The position numbers were made by a program, and so were the translations under genes. From contig NC_037094.1 in NCBI RefSeq assembly GCF_002994745.2, positions 22,297,001 to 22,361,000 of the forward strand: a stretch of 64,000 nt of DNA, read 5' to 3'. The notes under the pieces were generated by a model. It saw only the letters and a program-made list of their open reading frames with translations, had not been told where the DNA came from and did no database searches. Positions 7,205-60,700 of this stretch are shown here, one piece after another (the stretch's first letter is position 1; every line of letters begins with the position of its first letter). Origin of the DNA: Rosa chinensis (lineage: Eukaryota; Streptophyta; Magnoliopsida; Rosales; Rosaceae).

Positions 7205-7568
7205 ATTAGTCCTTTTATTTTCCAAGAATTTTTGTAATGGCAATATGCCTTAGTCAATAAATGACAATTGTATTAAACTCTATCTTATGTGATGCACCCA
7301 ATGAAATATGATGTCTAGGAAAATCATTGAGATTAATGGTACTTAAGAGAGTCTCGCTCCACCAACATCTCTCTCTACTTTCCTGGTTATATTTGATTGG
7401 AGTTACCAAACTGATAGAGTGACTACAATGTGTCTTAGTTTGATTTTATTTTGGATTAGACTTTTTGGGACCTTTGATGTAATCATTGTCTATCTTTATT
7501 AATAAAGTATCGTATTATTATTCGATGTCATGGACATATTTTAATTCCGAATTTTATTATTTTTAAGT
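7205..7568 (+). other. Spacer between gag and pol of element B
   Basis: AT-rich, no coding frame. Gag and Pol are thus separated in this element, rather than joined in one long frame as in most Copia elements. Confidence 0.5.
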
Positions 7569-9316
7569 ATGTTTCCTGGAGAGTTGGAATGCTTTGTTGA
7601 TAGTGGCACCACACATACTATATTGCAACATAGGCAACTATTTCTATGGATGACGCCTAGTCGATCTTCTGTGACTACAATGGCTGGACCATCACAATTG
7701 ATTCATGGTCGAGGACCAGCTCAATTTATGTTGCCAAATGGCACAAGTATTAATGTCACCGAAACTCTATATGCTCCTATGGCTAGAAGGACCCTATTGA
7801 GTTTTAAAGATATAAGAGCCAATGGTTTTCATGTGGAAACACATTGTGAGAATGGACAAAAGTTCCTTTGCATCACCTCTAATGATTACGAACATAAAAG
7901 AGTATTAGAGAAACTTATGTGTCGATCTAGTGGGTTGTATGCAACCACTATTCGAATGATTGAATCCAACCATGTCATGAGAGATGACTTATGGGATTCT
8001 GACACATATAGGATTTGGCATGACCGTTTGGGACACACAGGTCGTGATATGATAATCAGTATATTAAAGACTTCACACGGACATCCATTTTTCAAAACGA
8101 AAAGAAGTCAGAACCAAAATTCGATCCAAGGTAGGGCTGGGGCCGCCTACCCCCTCCTGCCCAAAAGTGGTATTGACGCCACCAATACCTCCTTGGTTCA
8201 TTTTTCTACTTCTAAAGTCAATTTTGACTTCGTGTCTCAACCAGATATTGCCCTGGTTGCTTCTAAAGCCCATCTTTCGTTTTGCAAAGCCTGCTTTTTA
8301 GCAAAATTAGGATCGAGACCATCCTATGCAAAGGACACTAAAGAAAATATTCCATTCTTACAAAGAATCCAAGGTGATATTTGTGGACCTATTCAACCAA
8401 CTTGCAGACCATTTAGATATTTTATGGTGTTGGTTGATGCATCGACACGATGGTCACATGTCATGCTATTGTCCACAAAAAATGCTGCATTTGCTAAACT
8501 CCTAGCACAAATCATTAAATTAAGGGCTCACCACCCTGATCATCCCATTAAGTCAATTCGTCTTGACAATGCTTGAGAGTTTACATCAAAAACATTTGAT
8601 GACTATTGCATGTCCATTGGGATTGAGGTTGAACACCTTGTTCCTCATGTTCACACCCAAAATGGTCTCGTAGAAGCTGCCATTAAAAGGCTTCAAATGG
8701 TCGCTAGAGCATTGGTTATGCGCACCAATCTCCCTGTTTCTGCTTGGGGCTATGAAATATTGCATGCAGCTGTGCTCATTTGTCTGAGGTCTACTGCCAC
8801 TCAACCATTTTCTGCGTCCCAGATGGTTACTGGATATGAGCCTGATGCCTCACACTTACGCATATTTGGGTGTACAGTTTATGTGCCCATTGCGCCGCCA
8901 CAGCGCACCAAAATGGGTCCTCAAAGATGATTAGACATTTATGTTGGATATGACTCTCCAACCATTATCCGCTACTTAGAACACTTGACAGGCGATCTAT
9001 TTACCGCTAGATTTGTGGATTGTCACTTTGATGAGACAGTCTTCCGGTCGTTAGGAGGAGATAGGAGCAATAATGTTCAACAGAAATTGCCGTGGTCTGT
9101 CCCTACTTTGTCTCATCTTGATCACCGAACCGCACAGTCAGAAATTGAAGTGCAGAGAATTCTCGATCTTCAGAACGTAGCAGACTCTATGTCTGATGTG
9201 TCTTCTGATATCGCTAAAGTGACAAGATCACATAATTCTGCTGCAAACGTGTCTACAAGGATTGATGTCCCTAAAAATCATAGACATGGGGCCACCCCTA
9301 GGGGTATTGGGCATGG
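7569..9316 (+). pseudogene. Element B pol, first half: protease and integrase
   Basis: The frame 7569-8576 begins with an aspartic protease motif (CFVDSGTTHTIL). It continues through the GAG-pre-integrase segment (IWHDRLGH) into the zinc-binding CKAC motif and the integrase core (GDICGPIQ, then VDAST). A TGA at 8574-8576 follows RLDNA. The core and C-terminal part resume in frames 8610-8930 and 8985-9316. Protease cleaves Gag-Pol and integrase inserts the cDNA. The stops and shifts, plus element C at 9317, break it. Confidence 0.85.
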
Positions 9317-11739
9317 TGTAATGCCCCGTACCTATTAATTACTTTTTACCGTGGTTGACCGAGGAGTGACTTTTTCTTTAGTCCGGTAAATTAGGAAATT
9401 TATTTGAGATTGTCGTAGAATACGCAAAATCGAGTTCGTGGACACGTAGTTTGTTTAAATTGGATTTATATCGGAAAAGTTATGACCAAAAATAGAAATT
9501 TCTATTTTTGGCATGACTTTTGTTTGTGAGTTTCTTTTAGTAGAAAGCAAGAAATAAAACAGATGGAAGAGAGAGAAAGGGAAAGAATCAGAAAAAAATT
9601 AAAAGGAAAGAGAGAGAGCACGGGTAGAACCCGAGTCACCCCCTCCCATTTTCTTTTTCTTCTTCCGTCGCTGCTCTTCCCTTCTCCGGCGAATTCGTCG
9701 CCGTCCGGCCACCCCAAGACGCATCGTTGGGCACGGCGTGATCCTCTCTTCCTTCTCCTTCTAGCTATGTAAGTTTTTCACCATGGGTATCATTAGTTTT
9801 TGAGTTTTGAAGAGAATTTGCAGAAAAGGGGAAAACCGGAGTTTAGCTCCCATCTCGGTTTTCCGGCGATTTCCGGTCGAATTTCTTTGGGTTTTGGTTG
9901 TTGGTGAGTTGCTAAATGAGTTCCTAACCTTGTTGCAGCTTGTTTTGGGCTGTGGAGGAAGAATTGAAGGTGTTTGGGGACGTGAACAGTAGCGTGAACA
10001 GTTCCATCCGAGTTCTTGAGTTTGGGTTTGGAATTTCCAGCTTTTTCTGCTTGTTTTGGATGTGATTGCAGGTATAGAATTGTTGGGGGTGTTGTGGAGA
10101 TAATTTTGAGCTAAATAGGTTGACTGGAATTGGATTCCACCTTTGATGTTTTGTGTTAAACTTGAGGATTGTTTGGTTTGAGTTTTTTTTTGGAATTTTG
10201 GTGTAGTTATTGTTATTTTGGATAGTATGGATTATAAATTTTATGGGTGAATCTCTTGATAATTTACTATCAATGTTATTGTGAAATTGTTCTATTTTGT
10301 GGAGGAGTTTGGAATGGAGATTGTGTTTTGGAAAAGAAAATTTAGAGAGGAGTTAAATTTTAGAGATGGAATTGTGAGTGGAAATGGGGAAAATTAAGAT
10401 TGAATGTGGAAATGTTTGGAAAGGATTTTTATGGTAATTGGTGGTATTTTTGTGATGAAGGAAGTGAGATTAAATTGATTTAGTTATCGAACGGTCCTTG
10501 TGAAGGTTTAGATTAAGTGAAGTCATTGAATGGTTAAGGAATCGATTGAGTGGTTATGAGTTAGAGGGCATTGAGATTGTAAGGAATTATAGAATTTAAT
10601 TCCGAATAGAAGTGTGGAATTTTATAATAATTTGTGATTAATAGACGCTTATTCCGAGGGGAATGGGTTGTTTTGAGAGTATTTCATTGTATGGTCAATT
10701 ATATCCTATTCTATTGTGACAGGACGTACTGAGCCCTCGAGCGAGGAGGACACAGACAGGCAGCAGGGTTAGCTGCGGGATTTACTTGTGAGTGGACCTT
10801 TATTTTTATTTAAATAATTCATGCAGCATGGTATTAAATTTTGAAATGTGATTTTATGGAAAGAAAAGGATTAAAAAGGAAACAGTTGACAAGGAGGCCA
10901 GTTCGGCGCATGCGTATCTTACCTAGTTGGCAGTCCCTTCTAGGTAATAGTCTGGTCGGCAGTCCCGTCCAGACTACAGCTCGGTTGGCAGTCCCATCCG
11001 ATGCGTCATCTGGTTGGCAGTCCCTTCCAGATGACTTGATGTAGTTAGTCGGCAGTCCCGTCTACTACCTGTGGCTAGTTGGCAGTCCCAACTAATCACC
11101 GCCTCCTACTCCGGTTGGCAGTCCCTTCCGATGCGTCATCAGGTGGCAGTCCCTCCCCGATGGCATGAGATGCCTAGGAAGCAGTCCTTCCTAGTCATCA
11201 AATGAGTTTCATGGAAAAGGATTTGAGTTGGAACTTCATAGGATTTGGCTGCATGATGGTTTTGTTAAAAAGAGAAATGGGGAAGCATACCATAAATTGT
11301 TTTGACTCTCAATTCAGTTTTGTCCACTCACTCTAATGGATTTTATATGTTTTCCCCTGGGCCCTTCGTTTTCAAATGCCCAGATTTCAGATTTGCAGAG
11401 ATTGCGTCCAGGCTCAAGAACTTGAGAATCAGCGCTTCCGTTTTTGTCCGTAGGTTATTACTTAACCTACCTTGTATGATATCGGCTTAGTTTAGTGTTG
11501 CTCTGATAAACCTTTTCTTTGAAGTTTGATGGATGTAATATATGTGCATGGATTGTTAATTTGATATAGTAGGTTGAGTAGAAGTTGTAGTTAAAATTAT
11601 GTCCAGGTTTGTGAAATTTTGGGTAGCCCATTTTTAGGGGAGATTCTGTGGCCGAATTTTTCGGTAGGATTTCGCTTAAAGTGGGCCCCGCAGGCTCGTA
11701 TCCAGGTAATAGGGGTGATTCCTGGGTCGGGTCCTGTCA
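9317..11739 (+). repeat. 5' LTR of element C (2423 bp)
   Basis: TGTAATGCCC... to ...GTCCTGTCA. It contains the hairpin array (10919-11197). Open frames inside it on both strands are chance frames. Compared with the 3' LTR it has GTG extra near 11650, one T fewer near 9657, and A/G changes near 11426 and 11643. Confidence 0.95.
10919..11197 (+). repeat. Tandem array of nine hairpins with invariant apical loop (5' LTR of C)
   Basis: Nine units of roughly 26-32 bp are each an inverted repeat around GGCAGTCCC (the ninth has GCAGTCC). Perfect stems: unit 1 TTACCTAG/CTAGGTAA (10919-10947), unit 2 TAGTCTGG/CCAGACTA (10948-10976), unit 4 GTCATCTGG/CCAGATGAC (11005-11035). Units 5, 6, 8 and 9 pair with one bulge or one mismatch each, unit 6 also with a G-T pair. 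Units 3 and 7 keep only 3-4 bp. Stem sequences differ while pairing is kept. The apex can be drawn as a GG/CC-closed loop CAGTC. Function unknown. Confidence 0.85.
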
Positions 11740-11741
11740 GT

Positions 11742-11753
11742 TGGTATCAGAGC
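11742..11753 (+). promoter_or_regulatory. Primer-binding site of element C (initiator tRNA-Met)
   Basis: TGGTATCAGAGC, the standard plant initiator-Met primer site, two bases after the 5' LTR. Confidence 0.93.
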
Positions 11754-11939
11754 ACTAGGTTATTAGATTCTGTGGCCGATATCTTCTTATAGTTGTCTTA
11801 CATGCTTGATAGTATTCAGTACCTCCCGAGTGATGGCCCGACTGCAGCGGTTCCCCATCATATACTCTTCGGTGCTGACGTACCAATCAAGTATGTAAGA
11901 TAGTTGTTGTTGGTATAAATATCTTGGTGTAACTCAGTT

Positions 11940-14900
11940 ATGGGAATTTCAGGTGGAATGAGACCCGGACGCAGATCTCGTGCTGGCAGGAACCATTCAC
12001 CCGCTAGTGAGGGTGATGATGAGCATGTTCCTCGTGGGTTGTTACGGACCGTGGAGCGGTTGTTTGAGCGTTTTGCAGCGGCACTCCCCAATCCTAGGAC
12101 TGACTATACTGTGGAGCGTGCCAGACGCCATGGGGCGTATACTTTCTCTAGTGCTCCTACGGAGTCCGTAGCAGGAGACTGGATTACCCGCATGGAGAGA
12201 GTATTTGAGTCCTTGGGCTGTCCAGCTGCTAGGAGGGTTCCTTTGGCTATTGACCTCCTAGACGGGGATGCATGGCTTTGGTGGCAGGGTACCAGGAATA
12301 TGGGTTATGACCCAACTACCATGACTTGGGAAGAGTTCAAAACGGAGTTCTCAAATCGGTACTATAATCAGGCATCCCAGCACCGTCTCCGATTTGAGTT
12401 CATGCAGTTGAAGCAGACTGAGGAGATGACTGTGTTACAGTATGAGGAGCGTTTCATTGCTTTGTCTCGGTTTGCCCCTGAGTTGGTGGCGACAGAAAAG
12501 TTGAAGGTTGATCAGTTTATCAATGGCCTTCTACCTGTATATCGGGATTGGTTGGCGCCTCATGATTATCCGACTTTTAAGTTAGCTGTGGAGGCTGCTA
12601 TGAGGTGTGAGGCTAGATATCTGGACGGTTCCCGACCTTTGGAGATTGGCGGTCCCAGTCAGGGGCCATCTAAGAGAATTGCCTCTAGTTCGGGTTCTGC
12701 ATCGTCATCAGGCAGTAGACCGAGCAGTTCAGATTCTAGCTCTCGTCAGCGTTTCAGGGGACGCTTCAGGAGGCCTGGGCAGACCGGTAGGAGACAGTCC
12801 AGGGGTGGCACTGCTAGTTCCAGTGGAGGCTTTGGTAGACAGGCGATTCCGAGAGACTATCCCCAGTGTGCTACTTGTGGTAGACACCATGCAGGCCCGT
12901 GTCAGGCAGGCGTGGGGACTTGTTACCAGTGTGGCCAGTGGGGTCACTACAGGAGGGAATGCCCTCAGTTGACCCAGGGAGTCTTCACTACTACTAGTCA
13001 GAGTATGGGTCAGACCTCTGTGGGTGCTACTAGTTCAGGCTCTCATGGCAGTTTATCAGGCAGGAGCAGCACTCAGTCGGGTCGTGGACAGAGAGGGCGT
13101 CCAGTGACCCAGGCCCGTCTTCATGCTATGACCCAGCAGGAGGGTCGCACTGCACCGAACGTCATTATGGGTATGTTAGTTGTTTTTGGTCAACCAGCTT
13201 TCATTTTAATTGATCCTGGAGCCTCTCACTCCTTTATGTCTAAGAGGTTTTCTTTCTTTGCTAATGTGCCCCCATCTCTCCTACTCGGAGAGTGGCATGT
13301 TGTTCTACCATCGGGGGAAAGACATAGAATTGAGTGGGTACATCGTTTTTGTGGTGTGTTTGTAGAAGGAGTTTGTTTAGAGGCGGACTTGATTCCATTT
13401 GAGTTAGTGGAGTTTGATGTAATCCTCGGGATGGATTTCCTACGGATGCATCATGCCTTGGTGGATTGCTTTTGTAGTACTGTATTATTTCGGAGTCCGG
13501 GTAAGCCAGTTGTCACCTTTTATGGTGAACGGGAGGTTCTCCCATCTTGCATAATCTCAGCTTTAACTGCTAAGAAGATGTTGAGTAAGGGTTGCCAAGC
13601 TTATTTGGCACATGTGGTGAATTCAAATGCCGAAGTTATGGATCTTAGCCAAATTCCTGTTGTTGGTGACTATCCAGATGTATTTCCAGAAGAATTGCCT
13701 GGATTGCCCCCGGTGCGAGAGATAGACTTTACCATTGATTTACTTCCAGGTACAACACCCATCTCTCAAGCACCTTATAGAATGGCACCGGCGGAATTGA
13801 AAGAGTTGTATGTACAGTTGCAGGAGTTAACGGATAAGGGATTTATACGACCTAGTGTATCTCCCTGGGGTGCACCTGTGTTGTTTGTGAAGAAGAAAGA
13901 CGGTACTTTGAGGCTTTGTATTGATTACCGGAAACTAAACAGGGTGACTATAAGGAATAAATATCCCTTGCCCCGCATTGATGATTTGTTTGACCAGTTG
14001 AAGGGTGTCAGATTTGTTTGGTCTGAAAATTGTGAGCGGAGCTTCCAAGAACTTAAGAGTCGGCTGACTAGTGCTCCAATTCTATCCTTGCCTGATGATA
14101 GTGGGGAGTATGTAATTTACAGCGATGCCTCTAGACAAGGCTTGGGTTGTGTTTTAATGCAGCATGGTAATGTGATTGCTTATGCTTCTAGACAGTTGAA
14201 GCCACATGAGTTGAATTATCCCACACATGACTTAGAATTGGCAGCTATTGTACTTGCTCTTAAGCTATGGAGGCATTATCTGTATGGAGCCAGATGTCAG
14301 ATTTTCACTGACCATAAGAGCCTCAAGTATGTGTTTACACAACCGAATCTAAATTTAAGACAACGAAGATGGATGGAATTGATTGAAGATTATGATTGTA
14401 CCATTGAGTATCACCCCGGTAAAGCGAATGTGGTGGCGGATGCACTTAGTAGGAATCCATCCGTGACCTTGTCATAATTAAGGGCCACTCGAGTACCCCT
14501 ATTGTCAGAGTTGAGGTCTACGGGGGTTGAGTTATCGGTTGATGAGGTTGGTACTCTGGTGGCTAGTTTTCATGTCAGACCAGCATTTATTGATAAAATA
14601 CGGGAAGCCCAGCCTCTTGATCCAAGAATTGAAGGGATTAAAGAAGGTGTTCGTGGTGGTTGGCAACTTGAGTTTTCTATTCGAAGAGATGGGACATTGA
14701 TGTTTGGGAAGAGACTTTGTGTTCCTAACGTTGAAGCACTTAAACGAGAAATACTTGATGAAGCTCATAACTCCGCGTATGCCCTGCATCCTGGTGGTAC
14801 AAAAATGTATCGGACTCTCAAGGAGTACTATTGGTGGCCAAACATGAAAAGAGAAATTGCAGCTTTTGTGAGCAAATGCCTTGTGTGCCAGCAAGTGAAA

Positions 14901-16012
14901 GCGGAAAGGCAAAAACCGTCGGGGTTGTTGCAACCTTTGCCAATCCCAGAATGGAAATGGGAACATCTCACCATGGATTTTATTTACAAGTTACCTCGTA
15001 CGCAGGATGGTAATGATGGTATTTGGGTGATTGTAGATCGACTCACCAAATCAGCTCATTTTCTGGCGGTTAAGGAAACCTTTAGTTTGGATAAACTGGC
15101 AAAGTTGTATGTGGACGAAATTGTAAAGCTTCATGGTGTCCCTGAGTCCATTGTTTCTGATCGTGATGCTCGATTCACATCAAAGTTTTGGAGGAAAGTT
15201 CACAAATTTATGGGAACAAAATTACAATTTAGCACTGCTTTCCATCCTCAAACTGATGGACAATCTGAGCGGACTATACAAACTTTGGAAGACATGTTGA
15301 GGGCTTGTTCTCTACAATTTAAAGGAAGTTGGGATAAGCACTTGGCTTTGATGGAGTTTGCATATAACAACAGTTACCATTCGAGTATTGGTATGGCTCC
15401 CTACGAAGCTTTGTATGGGAAACAGTGTAGGACCCCTTGTGTTGGGATGAAGTGGGAGAAAGACAACTTATTGGTCCAGAGATCGTTGAAATCACAACAA
15501 ATAAAGTCAAAGTGATCAGAGAGAAACTCAAGACGGCTCAAAGCAGACAGAAGAGCTACGCAGATAAACACAGGAAGCATCTTGAATTTCAAGTTGGTGA
15601 TTGGGTATTTCTGAAGTTATCTCCTTGGAAGGGTGTGGTAAGGTTTGGTAAACGAGGAAAACTAAGTCCAAGGTATATTGGTCCCTATGAGATTGTGGAA
15701 CGAATTGGTCTGGTTGCTTACCGCTTGGCTTTACCTCCACAACTATCTCAAGTACATGATGTATTCCACGTCTCCATGCTTCGCAAGTACATCACTGATC
15801 CTTCACATGTGTTACCAGCTCAACCCATTACACTTACAGAAGATCTAACATATGAAGAAGAACCAGTACAGATCCTTGATCGTCGTGAGCAAGTACTCCG
15901 AAGTAAGATTATACCTTTGGTTAAGGTATTATGGAGGAACCACCTGTTTGAAGAAGCTACTTGGGAACCAGAGGATCAAATGAGGCAACAGTATCCACAT
16001 CTTTTTTCTTGA
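11940..16012 (+). pseudogene. Element C gag-pol with deleted reverse-transcriptase core
   Basis: Frame 11940-14477 starts with Gag, then zinc knuckle [14 protein letters not shown] (about 12921-12962) and aspartic protease. The protease motif reads DPGAS where DSGA/T is usual. Reverse transcriptase opens normally ([20 protein letters not shown]). After LFDQLKG it jumps near 14010-14020 to the RNase H-proximal segment ([14 protein letters not shown]), so the palm with the YVDD site is missing. RNase H follows. A TAA at 14475-14477 precedes integrase, which is in the same frame (14502 on) with HHCC and D,D,E regions. A 1-nt shift near 15430 moves the integrase C-terminus and chromodomain-like tail into the frame 15437-16012. 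Confidence 0.93.
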
Positions 16013-16054
16013 CAGGTATAATTTCGAGGACGAAATTTTATAAGGAGGGGAGAT

Positions 16055-18475
16055 TGTAATGCCCCGTACCTATTAATTACTTTTTACCGTGGTTGACCGA
16101 GGAGTGACTTTTTCTTTAGTCCGGTAAATTAGGAAATTTATTTGAGATTGTCGTAGAATACGCAAAATCGAGTTCGTGGACACGTAGTTTGTTTAAATTG
16201 GATTTATATCGGAAAAGTTATGACCAAAAATAGAAATTTCTATTTTTGGCATGACTTTTGTTTGTGAGTTTCTTTTAGTAGAAAGCAAGAAATAAAACAG
16301 ATGGAAGAGAGAGAAAGGGAAAGAATCAGAAAAAAATTAAAAGGAAAGAGAGAGAGCACGGGTAGAACCCGAGTCACCCCCTCCCATTTTCTTTTTTCTT
16401 CTTCCGTCGCTGCTCTTCCCTTCTCCGGCGAATTCGTCGCCGTCCGGCCACCCCAAGACGCATCGTTGGGCACGGCGTGATCCTCTCTTCCTTCTCCTTC
16501 TAGCTATGTAAGTTTTTCACCATGGGTATCATTAGTTTTTGAGTTTTGAAGAGAATTTGCAGAAAAGGGGAAAACCGGAGTTTAGCTCCCATCTCGGTTT
16601 TCCGGCGATTTCCGGTCGAATTTCTTTGGGTTTTGGTTGTTGGTGAGTTGCTAAATGAGTTCCTAACCTTGTTGCAGCTTGTTTTGGGCTGTGGAGGAAG
16701 AATTGAAGGTGTTTGGGGACGTGAACAGTAGCGTGAACAGTTCCATCCGAGTTCTTGAGTTTGGGTTTGGAATTTCCAGCTTTTTCTGCTTGTTTTGGAT
16801 GTGATTGCAGGTATAGAATTGTTGGGGGTGTTGTGGAGATAATTTTGAGCTAAATAGGTTGACTGGAATTGGATTCCACCTTTGATGTTTTGTGTTAAAC
16901 TTGAGGATTGTTTGGTTTGAGTTTTTTTTTGGAATTTTGGTGTAGTTATTGTTATTTTGGATAGTATGGATTATAAATTTTATGGGTGAATCTCTTGATA
17001 ATTTACTATCAATGTTATTGTGAAATTGTTCTATTTTGTGGAGGAGTTTGGAATGGAGATTGTGTTTTGGAAAAGAAAATTTAGAGAGGAGTTAAATTTT
17101 AGAGATGGAATTGTGAGTGGAAATGGGGAAAATTAAGATTGAATGTGGAAATGTTTGGAAAGGATTTTTATGGTAATTGGTGGTATTTTTGTGATGAAGG
17201 AAGTGAGATTAAATTGATTTAGTTATCGAACGGTCCTTGTGAAGGTTTAGATTAAGTGAAGTCATTGAATGGTTAAGGAATCGATTGAGTGGTTATGAGT
17301 TAGAGGGCATTGAGATTGTAAGGAATTATAGAATTTAATTCCGAATAGAAGTGTGGAATTTTATAATAATTTGTGATTAATAGACGCTTATTCCGAGGGG
17401 AATGGGTTGTTTTGAGAGTATTTCATTGTATGGTCAATTATATCCTATTCTATTGTGACAGGACGTACTGAGCCCTCGAGCGAGGAGGACACAGACAGGC
17501 AGCAGGGTTAGCTGCGGGATTTACTTGTGAGTGGACCTTTATTTTTATTTAAATAATTCATGCAGCATGGTATTAAATTTTGAAATGTGATTTTATGGAA
17601 AGAAAAGGATTAAAAAGGAAACAGTTGACAAGGAGGCCAGTTCGGCGCATGCGTATCTTACCTAGTTGGCAGTCCCTTCTAGGTAATAGTCTGGTCGGCA
17701 GTCCCGTCCAGACTACAGCTCGGTTGGCAGTCCCATCCGATGCGTCATCTGGTTGGCAGTCCCTTCCAGATGACTTGATGTAGTTAGTCGGCAGTCCCGT
17801 CTACTACCTGTGGCTAGTTGGCAGTCCCAACTAATCACCGCCTCCTACTCCGGTTGGCAGTCCCTTCCGATGCGTCATCAGGTGGCAGTCCCTCCCCGAT
17901 GGCATGAGATGCCTAGGAAGCAGTCCTTCCTAGTCATCAAATGAGTTTCATGGAAAAGGATTTGAGTTGGAACTTCATAGGATTTGGCTGCATGATGGTT
18001 TTGTTAAAAAGAGAAATGGGGAAGCATACCATAAATTGTTTTGACTCTCAATTCAGTTTTGTCCACTCACTCTAATGGATTTTATATGTTTTCCCCTGGG
18101 CCCTTCGTTTTCAAATGCCCAGATTTCAGATTTGCAGAGATTGCGTCCAGGCTCAAGAACTTGGGAATCAGCGCTTCCGTTTTTGTCCGTAGGTTATTAC
18201 TTAACCTACCTTGTATGATATCGGCTTAGTTTAGTGTTGCTCTGATAAACCTTTTCTTTGAAGTTTGATGGATGTAATATATGTGCATGGATTGTTAATT
18301 TGATATAGTAGGTTGAGTAGAAGTTGTAGTTAAAATTATGTCCAGGTTTGTGAAATTTTGGGTAGCCCATTTTTAGGGGAGGTTCTGCCGAATTTTTCGG
18401 TAGGATTTCGCTTAAAGTGGGCCCCGCAGGCTCGTATCCAGGTAATAGGGGTGATTCCTGGGTCGGGTCCTGTCA
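16055..18475 (+). repeat. 3' LTR of element C (2421 bp)
   Basis: Near-identical copy of 9317-11739, ending ...GTCCTGTCA directly before the right CATGG target duplication. Confidence 0.95.
17658..17936 (+). repeat. Tandem hairpin array, copy in the 3' LTR of C
   Basis: The same nine units as at 10919-11197, offset by 6739 bp and identical as far as I compared them. Confidence 0.85.
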
Positions 18476-20465
18476 CATGGTGCCGCCACCACTAATAATG
18501 ATGGCAATGTGGCTCAGGCAGGGCTCCCAGCAAGGAAACGCGGGAGGCCCAAAGGTTCGATGGATTCTCGCCCGAGAAAGAAAGCAAGTTTGGCACAGAA
18601 AGATCCATTAATCATCTACATAAATAACCCGTCTCATAAAGATATTCCGGATTATGGTTATGTCCAAGAGACATCATTGGGGGCGCTCCAATGTTAGAAC
18701 CAATTCCAGGGAATAGGGAGATCTCCATGAATTACACTAGTGTACATGAGACGTTGAATCGAGATTCTATTATCCTTGATGATGTGTTTGCATATTGTAT
18801 TGCTCAAGGAACTATAGAACACGATGATATCGAACCTTGCTCCGTTGAAGAATGTCAACGAAAAGCAGACTGGCCTAAATGGAAAGATGCTATCCAGGTT
18901 GAATTGGATTCACTAACAAAGAGACAGGTATTTGGGCTTATAACGCTGACACCCCCAAGTATAAAGCATGTTGGCCATAAATGGGTTTTTGTTAGAAAGC
19001 GTAATGAGAAAAATGAGGTTGTTAGATACAAAGCTCGCTTTGTGGCACAAGGTTTCTCACAACGTCCTGGAATCGACTGTGAGGAGACATATTCTCCCGT
19101 AATGGACGTTATAATGTTCCGCTACCTTGTCAGTTTGGTAGTTTCTGAAAAACTTGAAATGCTGCTTATGGATGTGGTTACAACATATATCTCTATGGGG
19201 ATCTAGATTCAGAGATATATATGAAGGTTCCAGATGAACTTCAATTACCCAAGTCAAGTGGCTCTAAACCACGGTGCGCGTTTTCAATAAGATTGAGACG
19301 TTCACTATATGGATTGAAACAATCCGGACGGATGTGATATAACCGTCTAAGTGACTACTTGATTGGGAAGGGATATGTCAACAATGAAATATGCCCATGT
19401 GTGTTTATAAAGAGGACAAGTTCCGGATTTGCAATTGTAGCAGTTTATGTCGATGACATGAACCTAATTGGAACTCTAGATGAGTTAAAGGAAACTGCTA
19501 AGTACTTGAAATCCGAATTTGAGATGAAAGATCTTGGGAAAACACGGTTTTGCCTCAGACTAGAACTCGAGCACCGTAGTGATGGGATTATGATCCATCA
19601 GTCAGCATATAGTCAAAAATTATTAAGGCGCTTTAATGAAGATAAAGCAAAGCCTGTGAGTACTCCCATGACTGGTCGTAGTTTTGAGCCTGAAAAAGAT
19701 CCGTTTAGTCCAAGGGATGAGGACGAAGACTTGTTTGAGGCTGAAGTGCCCTATCTAAGTGCAATAGGAGCATTATTGTACTTAGCTCAATGCACAAGAC
19801 CGGACATCTCATTCGCAGTGAACTTGTTAGCTCGACACAGTTCTGCGCCAACACGCCACCATTGGATTGGCATAAAGACAATCTTTCGATACTTGAGAGG
19901 TACGATTGATATAGGCTTGTTCTATCCCTACAGAGAGAAAAGAAATAACGGAAGTGTGGGATCAGACTCCACAAGGCAAAACGCCACCTTCCGTGCTCCT
20001 CCTCCCTTCTATCAAAATGACAACGATGTCTTGATGGGTTTTGCTGATGTAGGGTATCTCTCTAACCCTCACAAAGGTCTCTCCCAAACGGGTTATGTCT
20101 TTACCATGGGAAGCACTGCGATATCTTAGAGGTCTACAAAGCAGACCCTTGTTGCTACTTCCTCAAATCATGGAGAGATTATCGCTCTACATGAAGCCAT
20201 ACGAGAATGCATATGGCTAAGGTTTGTAGTTAGACACATTCGATGAACTTGTGGTTTGAAGTCTACCATAGATGAACCTACATGCATTTATGAAGATAAT
20301 GTAGTTTGTATTGAGCAAATGAAGTTAGGTTTCATCAAGGGCGACAACACCAAGCATATATCGCCTAAGTTCTTTTACAAACAGCAACAACAAACACTTC
20401 TAAATATTGAAGTGAATCAAATTCATGCAGAGGATAATGTAGCGGACTTTTTTACCAAGTCGTGA
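18476..20465 (+). pseudogene. Element B pol, second half: reverse transcriptase and RNase H
   Basis: Coding similarity resumes right after the right copy of C's target duplication, in phase with the left part. The basic linker (GRPKGSMDSRPRKK, about 18547-18588) leads into reverse transcriptase (HKWVFVRKRNEKNEVVRYKA, about 18974-19033). The catalytic motif is AVYVDD (about 19440-19457). RNase H follows (GFADVGYLSNP, about 20037-20069) through the KHI and ADFFTK ends near 20460. A shift near 19200 and in-frame stops near 19336, 20130 and 20245 disrupt it. Confidence 0.88.
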
Positions 20466-44435: not shown

Positions 44436-46062
44436 TTATCTCAATCATTATTTGAATTTCAACTACAACTCGAATCTCGACGAGAAAGAAAGAAAATCAG
44501 TCAAACAATAAATACAAATTGACGTTGAAGGAGAATGATCCATGTTCAAAGTTCAAAGATGCTTAGCTTTAGCAACTAGGAGGAGCTAAGCCTAGAGCTA
44601 AGCAGTCGCAGAGAGACAAAGCAGCAGCAAGAAGAAGAAGACGACGAAGTGGCATGGGTCACGTCAACCTTATACAAAAGCACGTGTGGAGAGCAAAGCA
44701 TGGAGACAATAGTGCGGTCATGCAAGCAACAATTTCTACTTCATTCTTTGGACTTTCAAAATTTGGACCTTGACTACTGTTCAATTTTGACCTATCTACA
44801 ATTTTCAAAGTTATAGACATGCAGGTTGATAGGAATAGGAGCGGATAGATCTGCATGCCGAAGACTCTTCTAAACTAGTAGTAATCAATGCTGGAATAGG
44901 AGCGGATAGATCTGCATGCCGAAGACTCTTCTAAACTAGTAGTAATCAATGCTGGAATAGGAGACTAGTAATCAATGCCTCTTCATCTTCTTCATCGTCG
45001 TCTTCTTTCTTCCAGTCCTTCACATACCTCCAAATCTACTCGCATGGTTTAATGGTTTGGTTTGTAGCGAAATCCATGTTCATATTTTGTCCCTTTATAG
45101 CTTCTTCTAGTTTAATTAGAGATATGTCTGGGGCTCCAGCAACATCAAATCTGTTTAGAAATGGCTTCCGAAAGGCCTAAAAAGCGTTTTACAAAATTTT
45201 AAGGGCTACTAAAACTCCCCAAAAAACAATCAAGGGGTCTTGTTTGCTCATCTACAAAGTTCCCCAGGCACTTGACGTCCAAAATTTAATGTCTAAGATT
45301 CACCCACATCCAAATGTTGGAGACGATACGATGACGACTATAGAAGCATGACCATCTGGGATGTATAGGGTATAGCCATCTCGGCCAAAACCACAACATT
45401 TTGTACATAGTCGTGCAAACCACTGATTTTCTAGTGTGAAATACAAATCAAGAGTACATCAGTGCACTTGTATTCTACTTTTGGGGATGTTTAACCCTAC
45501 ATCAGCCCTTCATGACGGATTGTATATTTCACATGTGAAATTCACTGCAATCCCCACCTGTTCTTAGCAATTCCAACAACAGAAGATGACTACAGTAAAA
45601 AAAAAAAGATGTTTTGGATGACCCTCATAAATTCTGAAAAAAAAAAATTGGCACCCCTGTTTCACACTCTCACAACAACCCCCCCCCCCCCCTCCCCGCG
45701 AATGAGCAATCAGTAGTTTTCCGACAGACATGTCCACGGAGGAGGTTGTGGTTTGTAAAAAAGGGGTACCAATTTTACTCCCCATTTGAAAAACCAATTA
45801 TCACAACTCAGCAAGGTACCAAGTCAAGACGCATTAGTTATAGTATATAAAATTTATAGATACACGGGATGCTTTGCAATGCTATACCATCATCCTACCA
45901 TGTACTATGCATTGTGCTAAAAGAAAACTTCACCTCCTCTCCAATGGTTCAATTGAAACATTAACAAAATCATACTCGAGAGATTTATCATATGATTGCA
46001 ATTTGCCATGAAAAATAAAATCTGACAGCCATCCAAAAGATATTGAAGGATTCCTTGCAGTT
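44436..46062. other. Intergenic DNA between the Pack-MULE and CSN7
   Basis: No gene. A 61-bp perfect tandem duplication occurs at 44832-44892 and 44893-44953 (unit starting GGAATAGGAGCGG), with a third partial copy from 44954. A C14 run lies at 45679-45692. The right end is expected to include the CSN7 3' UTR. Confidence 0.6.
44832..44953. repeat. 61-bp perfect tandem duplication
   Basis: Two apparently identical copies followed by a truncated third; identity implies a recent event. Confidence 0.9.
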
Positions 46063-56374: not shown

Positions 56375-57150
56375 TTAAAACCCACGGGTATGCTGCTGGT
56401 AAAAATTTGTTAACGGGTAATACCCATAGTTTATGGGTATGGGTATGAGTATGGATAATTATAAAATACCCGTATAAAAATGGATATTTAGATATGGGTA
56501 TGGGTAATTACAATTTTATATGGATATTTGGGTAAAATTTGAGAGGATGGTCCTAAGGGCGATCCGTGAGGATCTGACCGTTGGATCTTCATGTAATTTT
56601 GAGAGGATGATTTTCAGGGTGATCCGTGAGGATCCGACCGTTGGATTATCGTATACTTGTGAAAAGAGAATTCAAAAGGCGATCCGTGAGGATCCGACCG
56701 TTGGATCATCGTATAATTGTGAAAAAACTATTCAAAAGGCGATCTGTGAGGACGGTTCATTTACGAACCGAATTTTATTATTGTACATTTAATCACCAAG
56801 TTGTGAAAATTGTTTTACGGAAATAAATATTTGTTTTAAACGTATTGCTTCCTCGTGACTAAACTAACAATTTCTTTCTTAAACACCGTCTCAAGTATTT
56901 GAATTACTCAATTGATTATTTGAAAATATCCCTAGATGGGGAATGGGGGAGCTTAAATAGTGAGTATTTTACAAAAAAAAAAAAAAACCTTGTCCATATT
57001 AAAAACGGGTAAATGGGTGGGTATGGGTTTACCCGTTTAGAAATAGGTCGGGTATTTACCCATACCAGCAAATTATTTGATGAGTATTACCCACAAATTA
57101 TTATTTGACAGATATTACCCAATGGATATGAATGCCAACTCCAGGCTTGC
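56375..57150. repeat. Repeat-rich region with GGGTAT motifs and a 60-bp tandem array; possible non-autonomous transposon
   Basis: Both ends carry short GGGTA/TACCC motifs in opposite orientation, with TGGCATT at about 56380 and AATGCCA at about 57131. This is compatible with a TIR element, but I found no convincing target duplication. The 60-bp array 56541-56755 lies inside. Confidence 0.45.
56541..56755 (+). repeat. Exact 60-bp period tandem repeat (3.6 copies)
   Basis: Units start at 56541, 56601, 56661 and 56721 and share GGCGATCCGTGAGGAT and CCGACCGTTGGAT, which includes GGATCCGACCG. Because 60 is a multiple of three, frame 56520-56792 stays open with a 20-residue period (AIREDPTVGSS-like). 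This is a by-product, not evidence of a protein. Confidence 0.9.
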
Positions 57151-57707: not shown

Positions 57708-60700
57708 TTAAGAAAATCCCCCAGATTTCTTCGAAATGGCAATGACGTTGAAGTTGAGAGACTCGGGATTTTTCTGGATCATGCCCTGTATGACTTTAGC
57801 TGCATCCTGTTATTCATAAAAGGTTTATATGGTTATAAAATATTCAGATGGGTCGATGACAAAGTGTGTCGAGGAAAACACACTAAATGAAGAGGTGAAA
57901 ACTGTGCATAAAGACTTGGAAACAATAATTTAGGATATATGAATTCAAGAAATGCTGTGTCTAAGAAAACTCCCCAAGATGCAAGCATTATCAAGTTAGA
58001 TTGCTTGATTGAATTTTCCACAACACATGGATATGAAAGCAGGGGAACAGAAAATATGCTCCTCCTAGCAGATTTGACACTCCAAGACAAAGGCCAATTC
58101 TCAGCACCATTAACTCTAACTGACCCTGCCATAAAGAGCTACCGCCTGTGGCTTCAGACTGGCAGCACTATTGACTCAAACATTTCTTCTAGACTTGCAC
58201 TCATAATCAAAGCATAATCTCCCTAAACTTTAGCATAATTGATTTGTTTTGTTTTCAAATTAAGTAGATATATGGTACAATGAATCCAAGGAAAGAGGAG
58301 GATAAACCGGATAACAGATTAAACTAGACTTAAAATTAGAAACGATCTAACTGTTCAATTCTGTAGCTTCATTTTGAAACAATTGGACCTTAACTTTTTC
58401 ATCTATCTTCTTCTTGCTCTTTCCTTGATCTTTATATAGGTTTTGCCATTTTGGTTTTATTCCTCTTATTTTTAAATCAAAGTGCGCGATGACTTTTCTT
58501 ATACCTGTAATAGAGTGGTTGGTGAAGACGGGCCGTGAGAGATCGGACCTGACTTCCTCCCATCAAGCTCATATAGTTCCCCTACATGTCACAATACTTC
58601 TTTTTTCAAGATGGACAAAAAAAAAAAAAAAAAAAATAGAGAAAGAGAGAGAGAGATCTGTACCGTCCACACATGCATAGCTGATAAAGTGAGTGTCAAC
58701 CTCATCTGTAGCCTGAAAGGAAAATAGGTGCATGGCATGAGGAGCAGAAGCCACCTATACCCAACAAAAAAGAAAGAAAGAAAAAGAGAGAGAGAGAAAT
58801 AGATTGCTACTTAAAATATATAACCTCTGTGTCACCAGCAGTAGCTGCTACTGAATGAGCAACTTCCATTTCATTGTCATTTTCAAGGAATGCTGCACGC
58901 TACATAGCAGGACAAATAGATTATATAGGTATCACAAATGGATGATAATGTTAGGCAAGAACAATATCACTACGGCTATATATCAACCAGTCAAACTGAA
59001 AGGACTGAAAAGATGATAGGGAGAGTATAGAACCTCCAATGGATCCATGCTTGCAGTACTTTTGAAAAATCTATCCAAGAATGACCCGTCAACTGGAACA
59101 AGACAAAAATGCAGAAAAAAAGACAAATCAACTACTGTCATGAAATCTAAAGGAAATGGAGCAACAATCCAGAAAAAGATTAAAACACTGATTTGGCTCT
59201 GCCAGGGAAACATATTCTCAATAAACAGACATACTTCAGAAAAATATAGCGGTTAATCAAGGCAACAGTACCGGTGTCTAGAACTGCCTAGTTTCAGGAC
59301 ATTGTTGGTGTCTGGTCCTGCCTCTTTTTCCTCCCCAAGTGTTATTCTAGGCAAAAATTAGTATCTACAACTACCTAGGTTCTGGACATTGTTGGTATCT
59401 AGAACTGCCTCTTTTTCCTCCCCAAGTGCTATTCTAGGCAAAAATTAGTATCTACAACTACCTAGGTTCTGGGCAGTGTTGGTATATAGAGCTGCCTAGT
59501 TTCAGGAAAGGGCGTAATGAACTAGCTACTGCTCAGCTAGAAAGCTTCCACTTTGGACCATTGGCCCAAACATAATAAGCCCTATTTGGGTCTAAATTGA
59601 AATGTCCATGCTAGTACAAGTACTAGTACTAGCTATATACTAACACTAACACTAATATAATAAAAAAATTGGGTAACATAATCCTATCATTGAGTCTTGA
59701 GAATCTTAATGTTCCTTGGGCTATTTCTAGGATCGAACGGTCTGTTTTCCCTTAATATCACCTGTACCTTCTCCTTTCTTGTCGTTCTACAGTCTTTCTC
59801 TCAATTTGTTCTCTAAAAGTACAATATTCCTAAATCTCTATCATACCATGCACACCAGAGTCATAGCAACACCCACAATAAATTGTTATCAGAGCAAAAT
59901 TCCTCTCCATTGTTGTACTTCAAATGCGTGGTTACAAATGCTGAACATTCATCTAAAGTTTAAGCTTTGTTTCAACTCAAGATAATGAAGGCAATAAGAA
60001 GACACTCATTGAGTTAGTTTTCAAAAGCGCACACAAGAAAGTATGCTTAGACCAAATGTGAATAGAAATGGGGAATGCTGATTCATCATCTTCAGCCCCC
60101 ATGAAGGAGGAACCAAGATTATTTAAAGGATTAAAAGGTGTGAAATTGGAATTTCCTGATTTCTATGGGGATAGCAACCCTGGTGTCTTCCTCAATTTCA
60201 AGTGCAGGAATCCAAAAGAAGTTAACATTTCCAAGGCAGACGGACACTCAAAAAAATATGAGAAACCTTACAATCTATTATTCACTACAGTGATCAAATT
60301 ACTTGTGTGCAATGAATACACTCCAATGATGGACAATACATATCTACCATGCATAATTATAATAGGAACTCATCAATAACAAGAAAATTCTGAAACACTC
60401 ACCAAGTTTGATCTCTGAAGTGATGTTTCCAACAGCATGCAGAAGTCCAATAGTTCCACAAGCATTGCCCACGGTTTGTTTCATAAAATAAACATTATCT
60501 TTGGTTTCCTACAACAAGAATTGTATGAAAAAGAAAATCATATAACTCCAAAACCAAACACTGTACTTTGCTATCACAAATTAGTAACTCATGAGAAACA
60601 CTGGAAATGTCAAAGTACACAAAAAGTATGCAAGAAAAACCACCTGGATATGTGTGTGTGCGGGCATCAAATTAAATTTCCTCGCACTTACCTGTTTTTC

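Follow-up and report, generated by a model that had tools for sequence, protein, structure and literature searches.

An array of covarying hairpins around a near-invariant CAGTC loop in the long terminal repeats of a young Ty3 chromovirus from Rosa

Results and Discussion

The long terminal repeats (LTRs) of a young Ty3 chromovirus in Rosa chinensis carry an array of nine inverted repeats whose arms covary around a nearly constant CAGTC loop. The array was found in the window, by which we mean the whole 64,000-nucleotide stretch of DNA that was analysed. Arrays of this kind are present in two LTR lineages, and their phylogeny conflicts with that of the LTRs in which they lie. The array has the appearance of a functional structural signal and not of a leftover repeat. 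The reading that we favour, and regard as quite possible though still tentative, is that of a modular cis-acting LTR element of Ty3 chromoviruses, most likely consisting of repeated weak protein-binding sites in the element RNA.

The host element

The array is hosted by a Ty3 chromovirus with 2.4-kb LTRs from which the reverse transcriptase (RT) is mostly absent. The element has the following parts.

9312-9316 and 18476-18480: target-site duplication CATGG on both sides of the chromovirus
9317-11739, plus strand: 5' LTR (TG...CA), 99.75% identical to 16055-18475 over 2424 columns
11742-11753, plus strand: primer-binding-site-like TGGTATCAGAGC, directly 3' of the 5' LTR, presumably matching a tRNA-Met primer
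11919-14477, plus strand: frame with gag (zinc knuckle), protease and RNase H in the Pfam scan, without an RVT domain match
14478-16012, plus strand: two frames with integrase and a weak match to a chromodomain (Pfam scan)
16055-18475, plus strand: 3' LTR, 99.75% identical to the 5' LTR, with a purine-rich tract adjoining its upstream side

The set of protein domains, together with the near-identical LTRs and the target-site duplication, places the element among the Ty3/gypsy chromoviruses, and it probably belongs to the Tekay/Del clade. Clear Pfam matches were obtained for RNase H, RVP_2, Retrotrans_gag, Integrase_H2C2 and an SH3-like domain. The matches to rve (24.2 bits, Pfam cut-off 32.6) and Chromo (21.7, cut-off 25.1) are both sub-threshold, and the Gag zinc knuckle scores 21.1, barely over Pfam's 20.8. 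A reverse transcriptase domain match was not found between the LTRs in the Pfam scan, and by reading the sequence we placed the junction of this gap in 11919-16012 at about 13998-14040, despite the 99.75% LTR identity. The RT-deficient copy is recent and was probably moved by the enzyme of another element. It is nested within a Copia element (Copia frames at 7545-8576 and 18640-20129 in the Pfam scan), and among proteins its C-terminal piece is most similar to one from Rosa chinensis, at 93% identity. Near the LTR start lies a perfect 26-nt inverted repeat, CCAAAAATAGAAATTTCTATTTTTGG, at 9486-9511 (LTR positions 170-195).

Layout of the array

For the pairing percentages given below we used 27 arrays, selected from 145 examined sequences for the standard nine-unit spacing and for distinct letters.

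10919-11199, plus strand: nine-unit hairpin array of the 5' LTR, inverted repeats around GGCAGTCCC
10919-10947, plus strand: unit 1, stem TTACCTAG/CTAGGTAA, 98.1% of cells paired in the 27 arrays
10948-10976, plus strand: unit 2, stem TAGTCTGG/CCAGACTA, 97.2% paired
10981-11001, plus strand: unit 3, weak, inner 4 bp only, 84.1% paired
11005-11035, plus strand: unit 4, stem GTCATCTGG/CCAGATGAC, 93.8% paired
11039-11070, plus strand: unit 5, one bulged base in the window copy, 97.5% paired
11071-11099, plus strand: unit 6, stem GTGGCTAG/CTAATCAC containing a mismatch and a wobble pair, 88.0% paired
11112-11130, plus strand: unit 7, weak, inner 3 bp, 96.3% paired for those three pairs
11135-11164, plus strand: unit 8, impaired in the window copy; a T-A pair has become G-C in 4 of the 27 arrays
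11170-11198, plus strand: unit 9, core AGCAGTCCT, compensatory change at two pairs, 91.3% paired
17658-17938, plus strand: array copy in the 3' LTR

As originally predicted from the letters alone, nine cores are present at this position, eight of them exactly GGCAGTCCC and the last one AGCAGTCCT, at a core spacing of 28-36 nt, and the 279 nt of the predicted 3' LTR copy (17658-17936) were verified to be identical to the 5' copy. The predicted end at 11197 had to be moved, since the array extends to about 11199. In a typical unit, a stem of 8-9 bp leads through a pyrimidine-rich internal loop and a GG/CC clamp to the CAGTC pentaloop. Seven good and two weak stems had been counted; units 3 and 7 are indeed weak, with 3-4 bp beyond the core, but unit 8 is impaired as well. 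At the position of unit 3, the array designated L126 has a full 8-bp stem of another sequence. Arrays range from 7 to 13 units with recurrent spacing patterns, reflecting blocks of units that were gained and lost. Because the unit number changes in recurrent multi-unit steps, units evidently do duplicate. Five Rfam matches were obtained for positions 9000-19000 of the window at E<=1, all of which score below the gathering threshold and lie outside both array copies. A repeat scan of the window also reported tandem repeats at 56532-56752, 59277-59497 and 44832-44963, with units of 60, 87 and 61 bp.

The array exceeds chance expectation and is abundant in the genome

The window contains 23 matches to GGCAGTCCC with at most one mismatch (the 3' LTR copy included) where 5.3 are expected, a number reached in none of 100 shuffles. 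When arms were swapped among the nine units, the summed hairpin energy was equal or better in 2 of 100,000 permutations and the ungapped pair count equal or higher in 18 of 100,000. Folding of the array, which the original prediction had proposed as a check, gave a structure more stable than 100 of 100 shuffles on either strand (z = -5.5 for the plus and -7.4 for the minus strand). Genome-wide, 706 exact matches to a pattern of the unit-1 core and right arm were found versus one for the reversed control, and 4,743 adjacent exact core pairs versus two for the reversed pattern. At about eight pairs per array, the latter number corresponds to several hundred arrays, two per intact element. In viral contigs, 60 stretches with two cores represented other kinds of repeats, none of which was judged array-like; the unit-1 and block B patterns (for block B see below) had no matches there, and an integrase search there yielded no confirmed relative.

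Stem arms covary, with many tolerated mismatches

Among 165 distinct stems from 29 arrays, 870 of 1320 cells are Watson-Crick pairs compared to a mean of 572 in arm permutations (sd 18, maximum 634, n = 2000), in a count that pools unit types and related copies and uses 266 of 275 units. In orthologous columns of the 27 nine-unit arrays, 94.3% of the cells pair, compared to 93.6% in shuffles and 29-53% in slid structures. Changes on both sides of a pair were observed in 20 cells versus 6.8 in shuffles (0 of 500 as high) and 2-4 in slid structures, and they affect 8 pairs versus 4.3 in shuffles (9 of 500 as high). The count of further pair types is ordinary, with 249 of 500 shuffles as high, and the covariation term of RNAalifold is small (-0.51 of -57.2 kcal/mol). 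A larger set of 84 arrays was obtained from 139 loci by removing arrays contained in another and by restricting the cores to eight specified loop sequences. In this set, doubly changed cells are Watson-Crick in 25 of 32 cases, originating from 11 of 16 distinct double events, where a crude independence estimate that ignores kinship gives 2.9 cells. Two units provide examples: unit 9 has ATGACTAG/CTAGTCAT in 40 of 64 cases and ATGATTAG/CTAATCAT in 5 of 64, and unit 6 has GTGGTTAG/CTAACCAC in 4 of 105 and ATGGTTAG/CTAACCAT in 3 of 105.

Many stem arms nevertheless contain uncompensated mismatches that are apparently tolerated alongside the compensatory changes. A single A.C mismatch is the sole fault in 38 of 87 copies of unit 4, of which 19 are perfect; unit 6 is usually mismatched at one position, and units 3 and 7 most often have short stems. 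The claimed compensatory change around a fixed loop is thus borne out by the arm permutation, the orthologous arrays and the double events within unit types, but with many mismatches left uncompensated; the same holds when such change is taken as the hallmark of an RNA packaging or dimerisation signal. The proposal that the array is not a simple repeat expansion is likewise right in that the covariation exceeds what plain expansion would give, although the units do duplicate in multi-unit steps.

The loop is the least changing part of the array

The CAGTC loop changes less than any other part of the array. Since the filter for eight loops in the 84-array set hides some loop changes, we added counts in which units were placed by spacing or found by a search blind to the loop. 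For the former, the next unit was taken as the best core match 26-39 nt further on and the first unit was omitted, which leans slightly towards good cores; of the 661 units so placed, 634 have at most two mismatches to the nine-letter core. All 24 units with at least four core mismatches come from two arrays, L142, which has an insertion, and L121, where the stepping went wrong, and five of them are within the 642 units in which the A and the T of CAGTC are each changed in 0.3%. Stem sites change at 4.3% (A/T) and 5.6% (G/C), in a count that omits sites whose commonest base is below 70% and in which the loop rates are narrowed by the loop filter. Between the window array and that of L126, the most diverged of the 27, differences occur at 0 of 45 positions in the loops, 6 of 36 in the clamps, 28 of 131 in the stems, 13 of 37 in the spacers and 17 of 32 in the internal loops. 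The loop-blind search with the unit-1 stem gave 771 places, and among the 50 of these that were listed 45 have CAGTC and five CAGAC. The loop, which had been called invariant, is therefore better described as nearly so.

The two positions that flank the core on each side are mostly pyrimidine mismatches. At the base beside the core, 266 units have T.T in 131 cases, C.C in 45, C.T in 29, T-A in 27, C-G in 18, T.C in 7, A-T in 7 and others in 2. Arrays differ in whether T.T or C.C predominates here. The co-change originally noted at this position is real in the window copy, but a minority pattern over the 266 units.

A conserved island with complementary flanking blocks

We compared 20 LTR copies, all of them chosen as array carriers. 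In the 12 most diverged of these, matching positions amount to 79% in the array and 66% in an upstream block A, as opposed to 13% in the remaining LTR. A second block, B, lies downstream of the array.

10788-10797, plus strand: block A, GTGAGTGGAC, a conserved sequence similar to a 5' splice site that may form the upstream strand of a stem around the array
11322-11331, plus strand: block B, GTCCACTCAC, reverse-complementary to block A at every position, inside a conserved 70-nt stretch

By direct alignment, block A was recovered in 19 of 20 LTRs (score >=50) and block B in 18 of 20 (score >=87), these being raw scores; in the chained alignment of the 12 diverged LTRs block B is aligned at 42% of positions, with 36% matches. 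The 139 examined loci are partly redundant. Both blocks were found in 76 of them, block A alone in 8, block B alone in 51 (many of these stretches being short upstream) and neither in 4. In 61 of these 76 loci the blocks are complementary at all ten positions, whereas shuffled blocks gave a 10-nt complement in 3 of 3000 cases. Of the 15 non-exact loci, three retain a G.T pair, L126 shows a compensated change (C-G to T-A) besides a mismatch, and the remainder have broken pairs or chance hits, at least four (L169, L173, L176 and L179) resembling chance hits to block A. This 10-nt complementarity could close the array into a single domain: the enclosing A-B stem has a predicted probability of 0.94 in the window, and among the 11 loci folded, the window included, the probability exceeds 0.75 in six and is below 0.4 in five. 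A twelfth locus considered for this folding, L136, is without the blocks.

Genome-wide, block B occurs at 999 places with at most three mismatches versus none in the control. On C1 below 11.2 Mb, array units adjoin it at all eight listed places. Six further places, with no listed unit-1 match nearby or beyond that listing, comprise four full arrays, one partial array and one without an array, where the site is filled by another sequence.

Right after block B, at 11357-11383, there is a possible second hairpin (CTGGGC/GCCCAG) that is recognisable in many diverged LTRs. Upstream of block A, at 10735-10776, small hairpin-like repeats are found (CCTCGAGCGAGG; GCAGC..GCTGC); the equivalent region of the second LTR lineage described below has a different sequence that is likewise self-complementary. 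These upstream repeats suggest that the structured region may exceed the array.

Arrays and LTRs have conflicting phylogenies

A tree of the LTR tail (18 rows) shows two lineages, I and II, with a split support of 100/100. In a tree of the 3' part of the array (21 rows), C.C arrays are separated from T.T arrays with a support of 99/99, and each kind is present in both lineages. L119, L131 and L136 are outside the LTR-tail tree; LTR alignments assign L119 and L136 to lineage I and L131 to lineage II. Monophyly of lineage I was rejected for the array (AU test, p = 7e-6; 8 versus 12 rows, the long row L131 having been removed), and for the LTR tail holding the C.C carriers together was rejected (p = 1e-34; 6 versus 12 rows), the C.C group having been defined after the arrays were inspected. 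The conflict implies that arrays were exchanged between the lineages as modules, or converted in parallel or in concert. One conceivable route of exchange is template switching when two RNAs are packaged together. The conserved island among the 12 strongly diverged LTRs is thus partly explained by array exchange, which makes it weaker evidence for purifying selection. If true, the exchange of modules across LTR lineages would tell how such signals spread.

What the array may do

Compensatory change agrees with the original prediction that selection acts on structure, probably that of RNA, but the strand-specific data do not add to this. Single-side events comprise 44 distinct G.T and 36 distinct A.C changes (p = 0.43; 165 and 119 cells, respectively), and the minus strand is the more stable one in 24 of 27 arrays, by a mean of 6.4 kcal/mol. 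Selection on sense RNA would predict an excess of G.T over A.C; as there is no clear excess and the minus strand is more stable, we infer rather than observe that the array is transcribed in the sense direction and acts as RNA, and so also its ligand and the process served. The array position may be in U3, in which case the array would be missing from the 5' leader.

Under the interpretation that we favour, about nine small hairpins, possibly gathered into one domain by the enclosing 10-bp A-B stem, would present a shared loop that is read by one protein, either the element's own Gag through its zinc knuckle or a host factor. Such loop reading would favour packaging, dimerisation or export of the element RNA. 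Arm pairing, both-side changes, the constancy of the loop, the island, the complementarity of blocks A and B and the Gag zinc knuckle argue for it, while the missing sense-strand signature, the uncompensated mismatches, the small RNAalifold term, the A-B stem probabilities below 0.4 in 5 of 11 loci, the possible U3 position, the share of array exchange in the island and the choice of the 20 LTRs as array carriers argue against it. We are more doubtful of an extended version, according to which the array represents an undescribed class of RNA elements of plant LTR retrotransposons, with multivalent covarying hairpins, a near-invariant CAGUC loop and a closed domain, serving as a packaging or dimerisation signal that is swapped between lineages via recombination of co-packaged RNAs.

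The main competing explanation, which we consider rather unlikely yet serious, is a DNA-level cis-regulatory array (enhancer or silencer) resembling that of Sireviruses, in which a DNA-binding protein reads the core, possibly on extruded cruciforms. The lack of an RNA-strand bias in both measures above would fit, as would the preservation of a non-palindromic core in sequence. The palindromic motifs of Sireviruses provide an analogy (PMC2829016): elements carry at least eight and up to 32 copies, and 117 of 127 LTR copies lie in the upper LTR half, drawn upstream of the TATA box. However, a core-reading protein has no need of the outer arms, which covary nonetheless, and Sirevirus arms are largely constant within an element whereas the rose arms vary by unit around a constant loop. 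Covariation without strand bias would also result from mutational upkeep without any function, where template switching during reverse transcription or replication would remake one arm on the model of the other and units would multiply by unequal exchange. The shifts of array length in recurrent multi-unit steps and the exchange or concerted conversion of arrays between LTR lineages are in line with this idea. We nevertheless judge it improbable, as it accounts neither for the constraint being strongest on the loop nor for the retention of the array in both diverged lineages. Moreover, the inverted repeat at LTR positions 170-195 kept all aligned pairs in only 2 of 19 other alignable copies, a control that is biased because this repeat was selected as perfect in the window.

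Block A starts with GTGAGT and is complementary to block B, and both blocks are present in both LTR lineages. This raised the idea of an intron or splice-controlled leader, in which block A would be the 5' splice site, block B would contain the branch point together with the 3' splice site, and splicing would be regulated by the array and the A-B pairing. Genomic copies with joined flanks numbered zero for lineage I and zero for lineage II in searches with exact patterns only, which makes this idea less likely, and we think it has little chance of being correct. Even less credible to us is a host-silencing substrate, whose structured transcripts would feed small-RNA production as for maize Sirevirus palindromes: stems of 8-9 bp with an internal loop are short for a Dicer substrate, and a feature purely costly to the element should be lost. 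It would have a parallel in the small-RNA excess reported over Sirevirus palindrome clusters (Bousios 2016, cited in PMC10760457).

Occurring at hundreds of places, with a loop that hardly varies and stems that nature has varied many times, the array is a directly testable candidate signal. To our knowledge, hardly any packaging or dimerisation signals have been described for plant LTR retrotransposons. The accessible text of a 2025 review (PMC12786077) has no occurrence of 'stem-loop', 'secondary structure' or 'dimeri', and the best-ranked matches in the open-access literature do not describe an array like this one for Ty3 elements.

Comparison with known systems

The rose element resembles the Tekay/Del elements among the plant Ty3 chromoviruses (clade names according to PMC6317226) in its chromodomain match after the integrase and its long LTRs. 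The hairpin array that it carries is absent from the accessible text of that survey. With the RM boxes of Sireviruses, the array shares many clustered dyad-symmetric units in plant LTRs and a possible cis function; those boxes are described in PMC2829016 as a Sirevirus-specific feature of Ty1/copia elements, with one motif, largely constant arms and mostly a CGG-CCG core. In contrast, the rose array has a Ty3 host, and its arms vary and covary while the loop is constant. The Ty3 domains and the arms that differ between units set the array apart from the RM boxes. Retroviral packaging and dimerisation leaders, and the hairpin-array packaging signals of RNA viruses, combine several hairpins that have a common loop motif and free stem sequences. 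The rose array, known here from sequence alone, resembles them in its shared-loop hairpins and in belonging to an element that encodes a Gag zinc knuckle.
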